Assembly: GCA_017619615.1 (NCBI GenBank)
Contig: JAFZRY010000020.1
Span: 1-64,000 of the forward strand
Reading direction: 5' to 3'
DNA length: 64,000 bases
From: Lachnospiraceae bacterium
GTDB lineage: Bacteria > Bacillota > Clostridia > Lachnospirales > Lachnospiraceae
Of the stretch, positions 392 to 9,657 are shown in pieces. How positions within the stretch are numbered: position 1 is the stretch's first letter; every line of letters starts with the position of its first letter. The translations under genes and the position numbers were made by a program. The notes beneath the pieces are model-generated. The model saw nothing but the letters and a program-made list of their open reading frames with translations. It had not been told where the DNA came from and did not search any database.

Positions 392-1291
392 CTATTCCGC
401 GACTGACAACTCCTGTTTTCTGCTGTCGTAGTGATAGATGTTGTCAGAAAGGATTTCCGCTTCCTTCACCACGTTCTGATTGATCTCCCGCACCATCCGG
501 CGGAGGGCGGTGCTGTCCGTGCCGGTACTTTCGGGCACCATGATGCATTCGTTGACCGAGGAGGGCAGGATGAAGAAATCACCGCCGGCGATCTCGGTCA
601 GTTCGTCCAGGACGCCCGGGTAGAAGAGGGCGGCGGCGGAATCCCAGGTGCTGCGCGTGATCACGTACAGGGGGACCTCCTCCGGGGGAAGATCCGCGTC
701 CGGGCCGCAGTTTTCCTTCAGGATGTCGCGGATCGGACGGATGACCGCCGGCATGAGGGCGGCGCTGTTCCGGAAGGCCTGCTCAAAAAGCTGCGCTTCG
801 GTCAGACCCCATTGCTCCAGCATGTCATGGCTGATCAGGATACTGGCCTTGCTGCCGTCCGTTTCGCCCAGATAGGCGTGGCAGGTGACGGCGAGGTCCA
901 GCACTTTCCGGTGCGGCGCGCGGCCCAGCAGTTCTTCGTTTCCCTTTGTACCGCAGACGCGGACGAACAGGCGGGAGGCGATCCGGCCGTAGGAAAGCAG
1001 CTTTTCGCACAGTTCCCCGTATTGCGAGGGGAAGGAGATCTGGCGGATCATGTTCCCGATCTCCTGCAGGATGTCCTCCGGGTCCCGTCCGTTCAGGTAA
1101 TCCCGATAGAACAGGTCCAGCCGGATGGCCGGTGTGAACTGCTCCTGGTCCTTCCGGACGACGAGGCCCGTATAGGACTGATTGATCTTCCGGACGCGGG
1201 GGAGGGTGACTTCGCTGCCGGCGTATTCGGCCGGGAGATAGTCCAGGATCTGATGCGCGACAATATCGGCGAATTCTTCAAAACTCAGCAT
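392..1291 (-). CDS. DUF5688 family protein
   Basis: This 299-residue protein resembles the DUF5688 family, a group of uncharacterised soluble proteins common in Lachnospiraceae and relatives. No catalytic motif, signal peptide or membrane segment is evident. The ATG has a clear AAAGGAG site 7 nt upstream and overlaps the last codons of the adhesin gene by 7 nt (the ATGCTGA region), so the two are probably translationally coupled. Whether the product has any role in adhesin function is unknown; only the coupling suggests it. The family call is by recognition of overall sequence and is moderately secure. Confidence 0.75.
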   Translation of the reverse strand: MLSFEEFADIVAHQILDYLPAEYAGSEVTLPRVRKINQSYTGLVVRKDQEQFTPAIRLDLFYRDYLNGRDPEDILQEIGNMIRQISFPSQYGELCEKLLSYGRIASRLFVRVCGTKGNEELLGRAPHRKVLDLAVTCHAYLGETDGSKASILISHDMLEQWGLTEAQLFEQAFRNSAALMPAVIRPIRDILKENCGPDADLPPEEVPLYVITRSTWDSAAALFYPGVLDELTEIAGGDFFILPSSVNECIMVPESTGTDSTALRRMVREINQNVVKEAEILSDNIYHYDSRKQELSVAE

Positions 1292-4200
1292 GGCGTTCTC
1301 CTTTTGCGGCGGGGCAGCAGCAGGAAGAGCCCGCCCAGACCTGCGAGAAAGACGGCGGCGTACAGGCCAAGGGAGACGGTGTCGCCCATGGGCGGGACGG
1401 GTGTCACGGGGGGCGTTACCGGCGTCACGGGCGTGACCGGTTCCGCAGTCTTTTTGTAAACGTAAATGACTTCCTGAACACCGGCGGCAACGGTCCCTTC
1501 CCGCGGGGCGGAGCCTTCCCCCATCCGGACGAATTCATAGCTCTGAATGGTCTTCTGAACGGTCCGGTAAGCAGTACCGACCGGAACGTCCTGCAGGACG
1601 ACGGTCCGTCCGATCAGGACAGCGCCATCTTCATCCACATAGATCACGGTGACGGTCCCGGTCAGGACGGTAGGAACTTCCACCTCGACCGGCGGCGGGA
1701 CGATGGGGTCCTCGGGCCGGCCCGGGGTCCGGCCTTCCGAGGAGAGCACGTTCAGGACGCTGCCGCGCTGCGCGTCAGCTTCGGTGACGGTATAGGAGAC
1801 CGTCTTTTCCCACTCGCCGCCGACAGGGAGGTCCACGGTTTCCGTAAGACCGACCAGATCGTCCCGGACGGTGATCGTCAGAGGCTGGTTGCCGGTGTTT
1901 TGCAGGGTGAGCCGGTAGCGGACCGTCTCACCGGGGACGAAAGCGATGCCGTTCGCGGGCGAATTGAGCACCTGTTTGTCCTGAAGATAACCGGGATCGT
2001 ACGTCATGACGGGGACCGTTTCCGGATCCTCGGCCCGGAGAGTGGCCCCGGGGGCGGTCGGATCTTCCGCTTCGGCAACGGCAATATTGTCGTAAGTGTC
2101 CTGCTGCGCATCTTCTTCCGTGACCGTGTGCGAAGTGAAGAATTCCCGGGAATCGCCTGATGCGAGGAAAGGAATCACTTCGTTCAGACCGGTCCGGGCG
2201 TCTGTGACACGCACTGCGTGCAGGTCCGTTTCCCCCGTGTTCGTGACGGTGATCCGGTAGTTGACAGTCTCGCCCGGGATATAGGCGATGCCGTTGGCGG
2301 GCGAGGAGATCTCGTCTTTGACGATTACTAACGATGAGACGGGAGCGGGCCGGTAGGTCACGGTCTGGGCCGCGTCACGGAGCGATTTGTGCTCCGCGAG
2401 CAGCGTATCCGTCTCCGTGTCCCGCAGTTCCTCAAAGACCACGAGGCTCCGATCCGCGTACGGCGAGGCATCGAACGGAATCTCCACGGTCTCTCGGCAG
2501 AGAGGGGAGGGGGCGGTGAAGGTCTTGTCGACCCGGATGCCGGGGACCGGCGTGCCTGTTCCGTCGCCGTTTTTCACGGCCAGGGTGGCGGTCAGGCGGT
2601 ATTCCCGGCCCGGGACCAGTCCGCTGCAGGTGACTTCGTCCCGGATCACGGCGTCCGGGCGGGCGATGCCTTCATGCGTGCCGGACACGGCGTCCGTGGC
2701 TTCCGTCACGATCCCGGCTTCGCGGTTGAAGACGGTGCCGAAGGAGTGATACTGGCTGCCGTACCAGATGCGGAGTTCGTCGTAGCGGAACATGAAGTAT
2801 TTCTCGTTGGCGGGGGAGCGGAGCTCCTCGAGTTCGTAGGTGCCGCAGGGCAGCGCGAAATCCGCGTCGCTCACAGGCGCGTCGCCGAACCAGGTGCCCC
2901 ACGTCCAGGCCTCCTGTTCGGTCAGTTCGTCGATCACGGACTGCGGGATGACAGCGGCGTCGGCGTACGGCTCCAGCAGGGCATCGATGCCGTTGGTGCG
3001 GTTCGAATGTGGGTTGTAGAGCTGGTCCGTGCCGTAGAACGCGTTCGGATTCAGGAAGAGGTAATGGCTCTCGCCGGTCTCCTGCAGCGTGAGGCGGAAC
3101 AGGAGACAGGGCAGGTGCTGCTGGGTGGATTCGACCTTCTTTTCGAAGTAGAAGCCGCCGCGGAGGACTTTGTTGTCAAAATGCAGCAGGTCCGGCGTGT
3201 AAGCGGGCTGCCCGTCTTCGGCGGTGACGGCGCGGAAGGTTTTTTCCTCACGGTCGGTGAACAGGTAATAATCGTTGGCGTAGAGCTGGCCGAAACGATC
3301 ACCGCCGGAACCGTACTTTTCCATATCGGTGAGTTCGTCGATGAGGTCGCCGGACTTGACCGGGGAGGTGACGGGCAGTTCGGCGAGGCCGTATGTGCCG
3401 TAGGGCAGAAGATAAGGCAGATCGATGACGCCTTCCGCGTCGGAGAGGAGGATGTCGATGACCTGGCCGGGGCCGAACAGCTTGTCCGGGCCTTTCACAT
3501 AGACCGGGCCGGCGGAACGATTGATCAGGGCGAAGCGAATGCCGGAAAGATCGCCGGCGCCCTGCGCCCGGTTGGTCCCCAGATCGAGGTCGTATTTAAA
3601 CAGCTGCGGGGGCTCAAGGATAGCGGGAGCATTCTCAAAGACCTCCCCGTCCGGGCCGCAGGCTTCGACAATACGGCCTTCTTCCGCAAGGGTCACGGTA
3701 AAGTGTGTGTCCTGCCAGAGGTAGGAGCTGTTGGCCATTTTGTGCGTGCCGCGGATCAGTTCCCGGCCGATGAGGGCGGTGTCGTCGAGCCGGAGTTCCG
3801 TCACTTCATAGGTCCCCAGGGCCAGGAAACAAGGGGAAGAGGCGGCTTTGCCGGTTTCGTCCGCGGTCAGGATCAGGGCGACGGCGCCGGACGGGACCTG
3901 CGTGCCGTCGGGCAGGGGAACGGGGGCTTCCGAGCGGTTGATCACGGCGAAGCGGATGCCCGCGAAAGAAGTGTCGCCCTGCGGGACCGCGCCGGTGTAC
4001 GCATCGCGTTTCGTAACGGAGATGCCGCCGCGCAGGAAAATGTTTTCGGCGGTAACAGTAACGTTTTCATGAGCCTTGTCCAGAATCACGGGGTTCGGCG
4101 CGATCGTCCCGGGCCGGAAGTGCGCAGCCTGCCCGTCCGTCAGTTCCTCGGTCACGGTATAGCCGTCGACGTCGGAGAAGGGGACGTCCGCGAAGACCGC

Positions 4201-6005
4201 GCGGCCGTCTTCCCCGGTCACGGCGCTCATGTCCACGGTTTCGCCCAGGAGAGAGCGGCCGGTCAGGCGGAAAAGGAAACCCGCCGGGGAAAGCCCGGGC
4301 TCCGGGGCGCCGTCCGCCGCGGTCACGCGCTTGATTACGGTCACGGAGCCGCGCTGTACGGTATTGACGATCGTGCCTAGATCATAGGTCACGCCGGCAT
4401 CGCCGGTGATCGTGAGAGTAAGACCCGGAGCGGCGAAGGTTTCATCGGGCCAATAGCCGGCGGGGACATAGGTTTCCGTCAGGGCGGCTTCGGTGCCGCT
4501 TGGGATGTCCGTCCAGAGGATCTCACCGCGGTCATCAGTGGCCTTCTCGTGGTCCTGTCCGTCATAGCGGAGGTTGAAGCGGACGCCGGGGATCGGCGCG
4601 CCGGCGTCGTCCGTCTTCTTCAGGCAGGCGCTGACGAGGGAATGATTGGTGATCACGCCCAGGTCATAGGTAAAGGCGTCGTCCAGGGTTATCGTGACCG
4701 CCTGGCCATCGCCGGCATAGGACGGATCGATGGCGTAGATGCCGTCCGGGACGGAGACCTCGATGAGGCGGGCGGCAGTACCGGAACGGATGCCGGTCCA
4801 GGCGATGCGGCCCTGTGCGTCCGTGGTCTGTTCATGGTCCGTGCCGCCGTATTTCAGGTTGAAGACGACGCCTGCGACGGCGCGTCCCTGCTCATCGGTC
4901 TTCTGCAGGAGGACAGTTCCCGTTCGCGTGTTGACGACGGTACCGAGGTCGAAAACAGTGTCCGGATCGCCGCTGATCGTGACGCTTTTGCCGTTCGGCG
5001 CCTGATAAGCCGGATCGATCTGATAATGATCGTCCGGGACGGAGACTTCGATGAGCCGCGCAGGTTTGCCGTTTTTGGCCCAGGGGATACCGGTCCAGGA
5101 GGCGATGCCGCGGGAGTCGGAGACGGCCTGATGATCCGCGCCGTCATAGATCAGGTTGAAGACGACGCCTTCAACGGGTTTGCCCCGGTCGTCGACCTTC
5201 TTCACGGAGGCCTGCAGATATTTCTCGGCCGGCGCGTCCGATGCGGTCCCGGCGGCTTTGGCGGTCCCGGCTTCCGCGTCCGCGGCGGTGACAGTCACGG
5301 ACAGTTTGTTTTCCGCCCACAGGAAATGGTCGTTGGCCAGCGGCGAGGTGCCGAGTTTGCCGGAGCCTTCGTATTTGTCGCCGGCGGCGATCGTAGCGTC
5401 GCGGCGCAGTTCAAAAACCGTGTAGGAACCCGCGGGATAATTGCGGCCGGTGGTGAGGGAAGCGGAATTACCGGAGGCGCCGGAGACGGTCAGGATCTCC
5501 GTGACGCGGCCGGGCGCATAGTCTGTACCGCCCACGGTCACGCCGGCGCCGGAGTCATTGACCACGGCAAAGCGGATGCTGTTCAGGCTTGCTCCGGGCG
5601 GGATGTCGCCGGTCCCCTTTTTGGTGAGGGAGAGGGCGATCTTTTTGGGCTGCTCCGCGGAGATGATCTCCAGGTCCTCCGCCTCGTTTTCCTGGTTCCA
5701 GGTGCCTTTGTCCGCATGGATGTATCCGTCCGCGCCGATCGTGAAATGCACGGTGTAGACGGCCGGATCCAGCGCGTAGCCGGCGGGGGCTTTGGTCTCT
5801 TGCATGGTCAGCGTGCCGGCGGGAAAACCGGGCTTGCCGGAATCGTCGGTCAGCAGTGCAGGGCCGGAGACCTTGTAGGAATTGCGGTAATAGACGAAAC
5901 CGTCGGTGTCCGTTTTGAAGGTCCACGCCGTGACGGTGCCGTCTTCAGCGGTGAATTGCAGTTCATATTGTGCGTCGGCCAGGGAGAGGGCTCCCTGGGC
6001 GGTCC
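1285..6005 (-). CDS. Giant Cna-B/VaFE surface adhesin, 3' exon (C-terminal about 1,570 residues)
   Basis: The frame stays open upstream of the first Met (5805) into the intron end, and the extra residues complete a SpaA/Cna-B fold ending in ETKAPAGY, so 5805 is not the true start. Domains in order, counted from that Met: end of a SpaA fold; a variable domain (about 55-170); three tandem homologous Cna-B repeats (about 198-475), each with a G-V-x-F-N-L-x-Y-x-G-x-D-H core; four more prealbumin-like domains; a VaFE-type repeat (VVFEEL); two DUF11 repeats opening with SPANGI; a MucBP-like domain; a proline/valine-rich stalk; VPPMGD; a hydrophobic segment and RRKRR tail. This is a wall-anchor layout, but VPPMGD departs from LPXTG and no sortase is encoded here. 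The signal peptide and thioester head are in the 5' exon at 7886-8989. Confidence 0.85.
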
Positions 6006-6008
6006 ATA

Positions 6009-6070
6009 GCCGGAGGTTATGGGTTTCCTCCGGCGCACACCCGGCGTGCGGCTTTCACCGCACCGGGCGT
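6009..6070 (-). ncRNA. Group II intron domains V and VI
   Basis: Domain V pairs ACGCCCGG with CCGGGTGT (8 bp, one G-T). A second helix TGCGGT/GCCGCA is capped by GAAA, and a two-base CG bulge lies on the 3' side. This is the canonical 34-nt catalytic hairpin, with a CGC triad near its base. Two bases later domain VI forms GCCGGAGG/CCTCCGGC with a 10-nt loop AAACCCATAA, whose adenines near the 3' arm are branch-point candidates. Confidence 0.92.
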
Positions 6071-6098
6071 TCAGCCATTGAGTGGGGAAAAGGAACGG

Positions 6099-7151
6099 TC
6101 ATTCTTCGGCCCCGCAGCGGGCGCATTTCCGGATCTCCGCCGTTTCTTCCGGGATGACGACGGGAGCGTATTCTTCGTCGTGACGGATGACGGCGGTCTC
6201 GGCGGGGTGCTCGATGACGGCGACGACGACCGGTGCGGAATAGGTGCGGTCGCTTTCGCCCCGGAGCGCGTGCTCTTTGGCGTGCTGCGCGTCCCAGACC
6301 AGGCCCTCGTCCGTCCAGCGGCCGTCCGCGTCCAGGAGATCATGCTCCCGGGCGTAAACGGTCTGGTCCATGCCGCAGCCTTCGCAGAACCAGTGCATTT
6401 CCGTGACCTCTTCCGTCCAGGCGTCCTGCAGGGTGATCGTTTCGTCCCAGGCGTCCCGGACTTTGACGTATTCGATGCGGGCTTCGCAGACCACGACGGT
6501 CTCCGTGTGCCAGTCGTGGCCGGGGGCGGGGACGGGACGTGTCTCAAAGAGGCCGCAGGCGGAACAGGTCCGCGTCTCGGTGCCGTCGGTGGTGCAGGAG
6601 GGGGGCGAGGTCACGGCCCAGGGGGAGAAGCGGTGTTCGTGGGCCGTGGAGGAAGATGTTGTCGGCGCGATGGCCGTCGGGGCGATGGCCGTCGGGGTGA
6701 CGGTCGCCGGGGCGGCGGTGGTTGGAGCGGCGCTGGTCAGGGAGGCGGTCGTTAAAGCGGCGGCCGGCGCGGTTGTCGCCGGGGCAGCGGTCGATGGGAC
6801 GGCAGTCATCGGAATTACAGCCGTCGGGACGGCAGTTGCCGGAGCAGAAGCCGCCGCGGACGATGCCCCTTCGGAAACCGTCGGGAGCACAGCCGATACA
6901 GTGGTTTCCGAAAATACGATTATTGCAGAAGAAGTTGTATAAGTGGAGGCGGAAGAAGAGTATTCTGAAGAAACAGTCTGGCAGGTGGTGCCTGCCGGCA
7001 GCTTCCACTCTTTTCCGCAGGCCCGCACCAGCAGCGACAGCAACAGGATGATCAGGCCGGCCGGAAAGAGCCCGGCGGCATGCAAAACAGTGTGATCCTT
7101 ATCTTTGTGGTCCTTCATGATCCTTTCCGTTTTCCTTCTTTCTCTTCTCAT
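6099..7151 (-). CDS. Intron cargo: membrane-anchored Ala/Thr/Pro-rich cysteine protein, 350 residues
   Basis: I do not recognise a named family. After a short charged start there is a hydrophobic segment (about residues 24-45) ending LLVRACG, which could be a membrane anchor or a weak lipobox. A long low-complexity Ala/Thr/Pro stalk (about 50-170) follows, then a cysteine-containing region with GHDWHTE- and CSACGLFET-like pieces typical of extracellular Clostridia repeat proteins, further CxxC pairs and a terminal CARCGAEE. The product is therefore probably secreted or surface-tethered. The start is uncertain: Met at 7151 has a weak GGAAG site, Met at 7118 has AAAGGA very close to it. It overlaps the 76-residue gene and lies wholly inside intron domain IV. 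The stop (6099-6101) is 17 nt before the domain IV closing stem. Confidence 0.7.
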   Translation of the reverse strand: MRRERRKTERIMKDHKDKDHTVLHAAGLFPAGLIILLLSLLVRACGKEWKLPAGTTCQTVSSEYSSSASTYTTSSAIIVFSETTVSAVLPTVSEGASSAAASAPATAVPTAVIPMTAVPSTAAPATTAPAAALTTASLTSAAPTTAAPATVTPTAIAPTAIAPTTSSSTAHEHRFSPWAVTSPPSCTTDGTETRTCSACGLFETRPVPAPGHDWHTETVVVCEARIEYVKVRDAWDETITLQDAWTEEVTEMHWFCEGCGMDQTVYAREHDLLDADGRWTDEGLVWDAQHAKEHALRGESDRTYSAPVVVAVIEHPAETAVIRHDEEYAPVVIPEETAEIRKCARCGAEE

Positions 7152-7329
7152 ACAGCTTCCGGATCCGCACGCCCGGCGGATCCTTCCACGGCTCCTTTCT
7201 GCCGCTGACCGGCGGAATGTTCCGGATCAGCGCGCGCGGGCTCAGACCCAGTTCCTGCGCCATCACCAGTTCCTCCCGGCTCAGGCGGCAGCGGCGCCCG
7301 GCTTCCCGCCACGTCGGTTCTTTTTTCAT
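7099..7329 (-). CDS. Intron cargo: small basic protein, 76 residues
   Basis: This is a compact, highly charged protein containing WREAGRRCRLS, a helical AQELGLSPRALIRNIP segment, then PWKDP and a basic tail. I recall similar short uncharacterised proteins in Clostridia genomes but know no function. The helix and net charge would suit nucleic acid binding, which is inference only. A good site, AAGGA, lies 5 nt before the ATG. It is the first gene inside intron domain IV and overlaps the next cargo gene. It is far too small to be a maturase and shows no RT, maturase or HNH motif. Confidence 0.7.
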   Translation of the reverse strand: MKKEPTWREAGRRCRLSREELVMAQELGLSPRALIRNIPPVSGRKEPWKDPPGVRIRKLYEKRKKENGKDHEGPQR

Positions 7330-7363
7330 ATGGTTCCTTATTATCGTTCCTTGTTCAATGGCT

Positions 7364-7885
7364 CCCGGGCTGTTCCTCCCGCCTTCATTGCAAAGGTGAT
7401 CGTCAGTCGTGCCCGGGGCTCTCAGTCCGGCGCGCGCTCAGGCGGCCGGACCTTTCCCTGTTCCGGTCCCGCAGTCGTGCGATGCGTTTAGGTGCCTTCC
7501 CCGGTCCGTACGGACGCCCGGCCTGAGCCGGGAAGGAGGTTCGCGAGGATGGGTCACTACCGCTCCTCCCGTACGGACTGCCGTTTCCGGCAGCGTCCCG
7601 CCGGTGTATCCGAAGGTTCGTCAGGTCCCGCCGCACAAAAGCGGGATCATTCTCACCGTGCGCATCGGAAGCCGGTCTGCCTGTCCGTGCCCGGGAACCG
7701 CAGGGGCCATTTCCTGTGCCCTGCATTCCCCGGTTTAGGCCGGGCTTTCCCTGTCGCCGCGCTTTGCCGTCCGGGTCACCCCGTTCGGGCAGCGGTCTGG
7801 GCCGGAGGATCGCTCCTCCCTGCGGAATCAGTTCGCTTGTCATAAGCGGCGCTTCCTGTGGATTTCAAAGCGCAACGGGTCGCAC
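7364..7885 (-). ncRNA. Group II intron domains I to III
   Basis: This GC-rich structured region runs from the 5' splice site to the start of domain IV. Domains II and III form clear stems, and domain III contains the hairpin CCTT-TGCAATG-AAGG. I could not identify the exon-binding loops with confidence: no exact GTCATC partner for the last six exon bases is visible. The open frames crossing this region are by-products of GC content. Confidence 0.85.
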
Positions 7886-8989
7886 GTCATCCTGGGACTG
7901 GGCATCCTTTTTCTGCAGCAGGATGCCGACGGGGTCGTAGGGCAGCGACGCCGAACCGGCTTTCACATAGCCTTTCAGCGTGTCCGTCACCTGCTGCCCG
8001 GTGAGGGTGATGACCGCCTGGGGCGGTTCGCCGTAGCTGGCCGCGCGGTCCGTCCAGACGATGAACTGCGGGGTCGTGATGGTACGCGAGGCGGTGATCA
8101 GGACGCCCTCCGGGATCGCCCGGGAAGCGGTGATCTTCAGTACGCTGCCGGTCTTCGCGACGGTGACGACAGGGTCGGAGGTACTGAAAGAAAATGCCTC
8201 CAGCACACCGTTGGTGTCTGTCAGAGATGCGGTGTACTGTGCCCCGTTTTTGGCCAGTTCCACCGTCTGCGCGTTGCTTTCTTTTCGGTTCATGAAAGAA
8301 GGAATGGCAGGATTGACCAGTGCGTTTTTCACGGCGGTCACGATGCTGTTGTAATAGCTGTTGATCGTGCCGAGGCTCGGGCAGGCGGGGTTCAGGACCT
8401 CTTTGACCGCGTTCTTTCCGGCGGGCGGCGCGACGTGGCTGAAGTCCGCATCCCGTTCTCCCACAATGGTTTCCCAGATCAGGATCTGCGTGGCGTACCA
8501 TTTGCTCAGGACGTCGCGGTCAAAATCCGCGGGGATGAACCAGCCCGTGCCGTCGGCGGTCGGCTGCGTGCTGACCGCGCCGTTGTAGCCCTGCAGCATG
8601 ACCTGGCCCAACAGGAACTTGGTCACGTCGGGCGGGATGGTCTCGTTGAGGCTTTCCGGGTAGCCGTTCCAGTATTCGTCGCGGGTGAGCGAATTCACGG
8701 CCGTGCTGGCGCCCAGGGAAACGCCGGGCTCGATGCAGTAGGCCGCGGACCCGTTTGTGACGAATACGGTGAAGGCATTGCTCTTGCCGAGCTGCCAGCC
8801 GCTCATCAGGTCCAGGTCTTTCGGCCGGGCCCAGCCGGTATCAATGGCGCCCCATTCATTGGAAGCCAGATAGGGGGTGATCAGCGTTCCTTCCGCCGCT
8901 CTGACGGACAGCGCGCCGCCCAGAATGCCTGCGGCCAGGAGCAGCGCCGCAAGCAGAGCGCCGGCGCGCCGGACTCGTGTGTGAAACAT
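7886..8989 (-). CDS. Giant surface adhesin, 5' exon (signal peptide and thioester domain)
   Basis: The N-terminal 368 codons hold a signal peptide (about residues 9-32, with VRAAEG near the cleavage site) and a TQXA-type thioester domain. Cys85 in AYCIEPG and Gln168 in YATQILIWE are the expected cross-link pair of covalent host-binding adhesins. The exon ends in ILLQKKDAQSQDD, the first strand of a SpaA fold whose remainder (AQGALSLADAQYEL and onward) lies 1.9 kb away beyond the intron. Unspliced, the frame reads six more codons of intron and stops at 7865. The start has a strong AAAGGAG site. I see no clear promoter between 8990 and 9250 on this strand. Confidence 0.9.
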
Positions 8990-9474: not shown

Positions 9475-9657
9475 ATGTCTATTTGTCCCAAGAATAAGTC
9501 CTCTAAGGCAAGAAGAGACAGCCGCAGAGCCAACTGGAAAATGAGCAATCCTACATTAGTCAAATGCAGCAAATGCGGCGCGTTGATGGTACCTCACCAG
9601 GTATGCAAGGCTTGCGGCTCCTACAACAAGAAACAGATCGTTGAGGTAGCGGAGTAA
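9475..9657 (+). CDS. rpmF: 50S ribosomal protein L32
   Basis: This is the 60-residue zinc-ribbon protein of the large ribosomal subunit. It has a basic N-terminus (KNKSSKARRDSRRANWKM) and two pairs, CSKC and CKAC, that would bind zinc. The AAGGAGG site is strong. In many Firmicutes rpmF follows a DUF177/YceD gene, but here it has its own consensus promoter and terminator and is monocistronic. Confidence 0.97.
   Translation: MSICPKNKSSKARRDSRRANWKMSNPTLVKCSKCGALMVPHQVCKACGSYNKKQIVEVAE

Follow-up and report, generated by a model that had tools for sequence, protein, structure and literature searches.

Group II introns of bacteria are mostly retroelements. According to the sections of PMC4424553 that treat the exceptions, introns without a reverse transcriptase (RT) are rare in bacteria and nearly always stand alongside related introns, the maturase of which may act in trans for them, and C.te.I1 from Clostridium tetani was the sole case then known to depart from the rule that a related IEP is found in the genome. 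The same sections name LAGLIDADG proteins as the non-RT load of domain IV, known from fungal mitochondria and Thiomargarita (PMC4424553). As described in the portions of PMC3919590 devoted to it, C.te.I1 occupies a surface-layer gene in a genome with no IEP-related sequence; it splices in vitro by hydrolysis, and in vivo its unspliced RNA is dominant with no clear regulation. The S-layer genes of C. tetani also include intron remnants (PMC3919590, same portions).

The intron analysed here lies in a 64,000-nucleotide stretch of Lachnospiraceae DNA (the whole stretch is termed the window), and its closest known counterpart is C.te.I1, both being RT-less and placed within the gene of a cell-surface protein (for C.te.I1 here and below, the same portions of PMC3919590). 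In both introns the 5′ splice site lies upstream of the GUGCG motif, by 8 nt in C.te.I1 and by a predicted 2 nt in the window, a shift that is needed for in-frame fusion and is set by an altered EBS1-IBS1 pairing; both have an enlarged EBS1 loop (24 nt in C.te.I1, about 25 nt by eye in the window) and a boundary stop that ends the unspliced ORF. As predicted from its sequence, the window intron has the features of the C.te.I1 type, namely absence of an RT, a surface-protein host gene and a shifted 5′ site required by the reading frame. The two differ in that the domain IV loop of C.te.I1 comprises 311 nt with no recognisable protein, whereas that of the window intron holds two conserved protein genes (the cargo); in that domain V/VI is present four times in C.te.I1, serving alternative 3′ exons, whereas the fetched stretches here show a single domain V at each locus; and in that C.te.I1 was found in no other sequenced Clostridium, whereas the window type of intron spans three genera (PMC3919590). 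The possibility of several 3′ exons at the fetched cargo loci was rejected, there being no second strong domain V match in them (the match in L043 scores 16.9 bits and is on the opposite strand). The LAGLIDADG group II introns, in the sections of PMC4424553 cited above, likewise carry a non-RT protein in domain IV, but there it is a homing endonuclease; the window intron looks immobile, and neither of its proteins has a LAGLIDADG match in Pfam up to E 1. In B.a.I2 from Bacillus anthracis the choice of splice site likewise decides the fusion of two ORFs, but it does so through two 3′ splice sites 4 nt apart, with no cargo genes described in those portions of PMC3919590. Among the matches listed from the open-licence PMC literature, judged by titles and abstract starts, there was nothing like a partner-carrying intron.

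Anatomy of the intron and its host gene

Comparison with related loci confirmed the prediction of a group II intron that lacks an RT and has two protein genes in its domain IV; it interrupts a sortase-type adhesin gene on the minus strand (approximately 7887-6006) of a 1.98-Mb, 91% complete assembly. Its parts and those of the host gene are as follows.

7888-8989, minus strand: 5′ exon, with signal peptide, thioester-like head and first part of an SpaA-type domain (from ORF 8989-7865 and homologues); its end at 7888 is based on the EBS1-IBS1 register
7888-7893, minus strand: IBS1 (AGGATG), the final 6 nt of the 5′ exon, which pairs with EBS1
7881-7887, minus strand: predicted intron 5′ end, a 2-nt extension AC followed by the GUGCG motif (7885-7881)
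7865-7867, minus strand: in-frame stop closing the unspliced 5′ exon ORF, from reading-frame analysis
7546-7551, minus strand: EBS1 (CAUCCU), within a domain I loop of about 25 nt (loop size by eye)
7365-7416, minus strand: domain III, from alignment covariation and model R1
7355-7363, minus strand: domain IV base stem, 5′ strand, from stem comparison across introns
7099-7329, minus strand: intron ORF 1, small basic helical protein of 76 aa
6099-7151, minus strand: intron ORF 2, surface protein of 350 aa, or about 340 aa from the likelier start, the second Met at 7118 (by eye)
6073-6081, minus strand: domain IV base stem, 3′ strand, a perfect 9 bp with 7363-7355
6037-6070, minus strand: domain V, 34 nt, from RF00029, covariation and model R2
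6006-6034, minus strand: domain VI and 3′ end (...CUAU, AY rule), from the alignment, without a bulged A 7-8 nt from the end
1285-6005, minus strand: 3′ exon, with the rest of the SpaA-type domain and an SpaA / T-Q ester / DUF7507 stalk

The adhesin ORF 8989-7865 has 374 codons and ends just inside the intron 5′ motif (GUGCGACCCG, 7885); a PF08341 match in the 5′ exon is below the cut-off. After approximately 1.9 kb the adhesin continues for 1,572 codons, with SpaA, T-Q ester and DUF7507 domains, to reach 1285, and its C-terminus presents by eye a sortase-type anchor. A promoter scan found none within the intron, but none ahead of exon 1 either. A 60-aa ORF on the opposite strand (9475-9657, plus strand), located upstream of the adhesin, resembles by eye ribosomal protein L32.

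All elements quoted in an earlier reading of the sequence alone (the sequence-only reading) are present, the domain IV stem and the domain V of 34 nt among them. That reading had looked to covariance models to detect domains V and I, and this held for the former only: RF00029 finds domain V at 38.9 bits (E 1.3e-5), just under the curated cut-off of 40 bits, whereas domain I goes unrecognised in the window. At curated cut-offs tRNAs were the only Rfam matches in the window, and the Rfam D1-D4 models gave no match in 5900-8000 at E 10; in one relative (L083) RF02004 matches at 32 bits against a curated 34.5. Of domain I, the EBS1 region alone was recognised in the intron. Our own models R1 and R2, both built with the window sequence included, score its domain III at 83 bits and its domain V at 100.7 bits.

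The alignments show 15 consensus pairs in domain III, ten of them with changes on both sides (nine sequences), and 21 pairs in domains V-VI, of which 11 are compensatory (ten sequences). The domain IV stem, of 6-10 bp, is present in 9/9 introns and the 3′ AY end in 10/10; the GUGYG 5′ motif is kept in 4/9 and lost in 5/9, and a bulged A 7-8 nt from the 3′ end is absent from the domain VI consensus stem. Recurrence of these elements at a homologous site in ten species, with compensatory changes, sets the anatomy apart from a chance resemblance; no weight was given to the folding energy computed for domains I-III on their own (z -2.64). From resemblance alone we infer that the intron, which has no RT for an IEP phylogeny, is class B-like.

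Predicted splice sites and reading frames

The EBS1-IBS1 register and the reading frames together place the predicted 5′ splice site 2 nt upstream of the GUGCG motif (7885). Six distinct versions of EBS1 pair with their own IBS1 at 36/36 positions in register -2, while 13 other registers give 10-24 of 36 pairs, and on permutation of the EBS1/IBS1 assignments the true one alone among 720 gives 36; the EBS1 windows had been picked where complementarity was seen, at the same place in the loop by eye. In 9/9 introns exon 1 reaches the motif in phase 0 and, without splicing, translation terminates exactly 21 nt inside it; in each of them splicing from -2 onto the G that follows ...AU fuses the exon frames, the predicted exon junction in the window being ...CAGGATG to GGACCGCC. 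A cut at the motif itself joined to the same G breaks the frame. The frame is likewise kept by a canonical 5′ cut if the 3′ exon is entered 2 nt further on, an option disfavoured by the EBS1 register only. A 5′ site 8 nt upstream, as in C.te.I1, was rejected, being in frame yet giving 19/36 EBS1 pairs versus 36/36 at -2. Among intron-free homologues, SpaA loop length does not discriminate between registers.

With only ATG starts considered, the first in-frame ATG of exon 2 comes not before 44 nt past the splice site, so that an unspliced stalk would be without the exon 1 signal peptide. The 3′ exons are open for 1,110-2,013 codons in six stop-ended copies other than that of G114 (L082), which has a single in-frame stop after 47 codons, either an assembly error or the mark of a decaying copy or pseudogene. 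The dN/dS of the exons is 0.21-0.26 (three or four genomes, one genus), that of the 3′ exon being 0.22-0.25 in the four compared genomes.

Proteins encoded in domain IV

A homologue of the small protein is found in 9/9 complete introns. It starts soon after domain III, where maturase ORFs begin in RT-encoding relatives, and its AF2 model is helical (pLDDT 74) with a helix order that is HTH-like by eye; pairwise dN/dS over four genomes is 0.16-0.49. In G349 and G344 (L089, L090) the small-protein ORF continues into an apparent second, diverged copy of the domain, seen as a weak second match in the former and by eye in the latter. The idea of a family specific to the intron was rejected, as of seven matches four are in such introns and three (L079-L081) elsewhere, in surroundings where no such intron was seen (our own models being applied to L081). 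Among 72,556 plasmid records there is one match to the small protein, and in phage records there is none.

The surface protein has an N-terminal membrane anchor or lipobox-like Cys, a long low-complexity spacer and a Cys-pair C-terminal domain, the last predicted mostly at pLDDT 85-95, and its dN/dS is 0.30-0.37 (four genomes). In structure searches neither intron protein had a match as good as E 0.001, and weaker ones were disregarded. Purine-rich stretches ahead of the intron ORFs are by eye ribosome-binding-site-like. In G001 domain IV extends to approximately 2.5 kb and places a MazE-like antitoxin / PIN pair (L045:7051-7711, minus strand) between the small and surface proteins.

Distribution and intron-free loci

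The search for the intron-plus-cargo unit in related genomes, as proposed in the sequence-only reading, found the same arrangement in nine more, all at one homologous site, for a total of ten species from three genera of one family; the RT-less intron with two domain IV genes in an adhesin that had been claimed from a single locus is in this way recurrent, with covarying domains. Both intron ends are intact in nine of the ten carriers, the exception being G015, whose contig breaks off within the cargo and so misses the 5′ half; the carrier assemblies have completeness values of 67-97%. A search for the intron 5′ part matched 4/61 genomes (own included), none of them outside the genus of the window, and 6/16 genomes of that genus have the domain V/VI end. 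The exact domain V core occurs in five GTDB records, all of them Lachnospiraceae MAGs and three named from goat abomasum or omasum. Searched with the small intron protein, 7/299 family genomes gave matches; those from other genera (G114 and G254) have the same order of head, intron, small protein, surface protein and stalk, and the arrangement is present in 3/15 genomes of the genus of G114 and in 1/1 of that of G254.

The domain III model matches 12/397 family genomes, of which four have cargo introns and six an RT-type ORF after domain III; the remaining two matches (G081, G253) were rejected as spurious, lying inside long ORFs. RT-encoding introns of the same family (L108-L114) have related domains III and V (R1 27-58 bits, R2 31-51 bits) and, like the window intron with its small protein, begin their domain IV ORF just after domain III; unlike the window intron, they carry there an RT/maturase-type ORF of 630-694 aa, recognised as a group II RT by HMM (TIGR04416 over cut-off) in G077, G085 and G371 and by ORF similarity in the others. 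GUGCG is found in 5/7 of them. Several lie by eye among conjugative-element-like genes, and G371 has four domain III matches of equal scores.

The surface protein was searched for at eleven loci of the same genus that lie outside the intron, including two in the own genome; it has matches at E below 1e-6 in eight of them, which come from eight other genomes. In 8/8 matching loci, a count that is conditional since loci had been fetched for matching the surface protein or exon 1, the homologue is followed directly, on the same strand, by an uninterrupted adhesin ORF (1,046-2,354 aa, that of G009 running to the contig end). By this gene order the intron carries the operon partner of its host gene, a cargo other than the unrelated one that the locus had seemed to hold when read alone. 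Exon 1 of G003 aligns to five intron-free adhesins with 47-52% identity over 537-604 residues, the alignments extending to within 3-7 residues of the intron site, and all eight intron-free adhesins continue across that site in one frame; the homologous adhesins are without the intron segment, rather than having it as coding sequence. No homologue of the small protein was found at E 0.01 in the compared intron-free loci, and at loci of the window type this protein appears to be the intron's own.

Reverse transcriptases and inheritance

Domain IV contains no RT ORF, and the genome-wide search for a maturase, which had been suggested as a check, returned no group II maturase over the cut-off in the own genome and a single RT (PF00078), typed UG26 by HMM and the sole carrier RT so typed. 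TIGR04416 was used for group II RTs because PF08388 (GIIM) missed the RT-encoding introns of the control G371; above cut-off it detects 0/10 carriers and 2/2 controls. Sub-threshold RT matches (approximately 20-124 bits) are present in all ten carriers, with extra weak ones in G254, G114, G344 and G015. An RT 57-97% identical to the own UG26 protein stands beside the same neighbour gene in all ten carriers (L120-L129, the own being L123, C2:40174-40974) and also occurs in the non-carrier G014 (L190), where the 1.97 Mb yielded one 20-bit R1 match (E 0.012) and nothing with the domain V/VI query. As a candidate trans-acting maturase the UG26-type RT was downgraded, being also in G014 without a convincing intron. 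The neighbour is a conserved 241-aa gene, and the RT is a conserved chromosomal one in the family.

The own assembly holds a single copy of the intron. In nine genomes the distances between small proteins follow those of the UG26-like RT gene (Mantel r 0.87, 3 of 5,000 permutations), as do those between second exons (r 0.78, 0 of 5,000). Because cargo and exons track this unlinked chromosomal gene, inheritance looks vertical and not trans-mobilised; mobilisation by a maturase elsewhere, which the sequence-only reading had considered, fits poorly with this, with the single own copy and with the absence of TIGR04416 matches over cut-off, although the sub-threshold RTs remain.

Discussion

It seems to us highly probable that the window holds a splicing-competent, non-mobile intron in the first SpaA-type domain of the adhesin, with the gene of a partner surface protein nested in its domain IV. 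Unspliced RNA would yield a short anchorless head protein together with the small protein and the partner, the intron ORFs presumably being translated from it. Splicing from 2 nt upstream of GUGCG to the end of ...CUAU would remove the in-frame stop along with both genes and give an RNA for the full-length adhesin; it is probably hydrolytic, given that domain VI has no bulged A. Each carrier transcript would then give either adhesin or partner, whereas in the intron-free relatives one mRNA could yield both. That the spliced fraction controls the ratio of adhesin to partner, as the gene order would allow, has in our estimate a chance a little short of even. A fuller version, in which the two surface proteins are mutually exclusive products of one transcript and the small protein is a dedicated regulator of splicing or expression that sets their ratio, strikes us as rather unlikely.

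The main challenge to ratio control comes from an intron that splices constitutively, with internal promoters or RNA processing uncoupling the cargo from the adhesin and no switch involved; this overlaps the nested-partner reading in all but ratio control, and we regard it as a serious possibility, if one with less than an even chance. The ribosome-binding-site-like stretches before the intron ORFs (by eye) would suit it, as would C.te.I1, with its unspliced RNA dominant in vivo and not clearly regulated (in the portions of PMC3919590 noted above). The promoter scan does not separate the two, having found none in the intron and none ahead of exon 1. A locus that no longer splices is a different matter. 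The intron would then be the decayed remains of a former class B element: the adhesin would be broken into a short secreted head and a 3′ part that is dead, with the cargo genes as a plain operon between the halves. The degenerate 5′ motif in 5/9 introns, the absence of a group II maturase over the cut-off, the stop in exon 2 of G114 and the remnants among the C. tetani S-layer genes (PMC3919590, in the same portions) all point that way, but the 3′ exons stay open in six copies and are under purifying selection in the four compared, EBS1 and IBS1 have changed together in six versions, exon phases are kept in 9/9 introns and domains III, V and VI covary, so that we hold decay to be improbable.

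Movement in trans by an RT encoded elsewhere, with the cargo as passengers of a non-autonomous mobile intron, we judge very improbable. RT-encoding introns with related domains III and V do exist in the family and a UG26-like RT accompanies the intron in all ten carriers, but that RT is also found in a relative (G014) where no convincing intron was detected, and a single own copy, one homologous site, vertical divergence and the lack of TIGR04416 matches over cut-off all argue against mobility. The window intron belongs to an RT-less lineage that persists in three genera, its domain IV holding host genes under purifying selection. Such introns would form a diverged set of natural ribozymes that may splice without a maturase, and since the domain V of the window falls just under the Rfam cut-off, surveys anchored on RTs or on curated cut-offs may overlook them. 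If the proposed arrangement is true, these bacteria would have nested genes resembling those of eukaryotes, and possibly a post-transcriptional switch between two cell-surface proteins.
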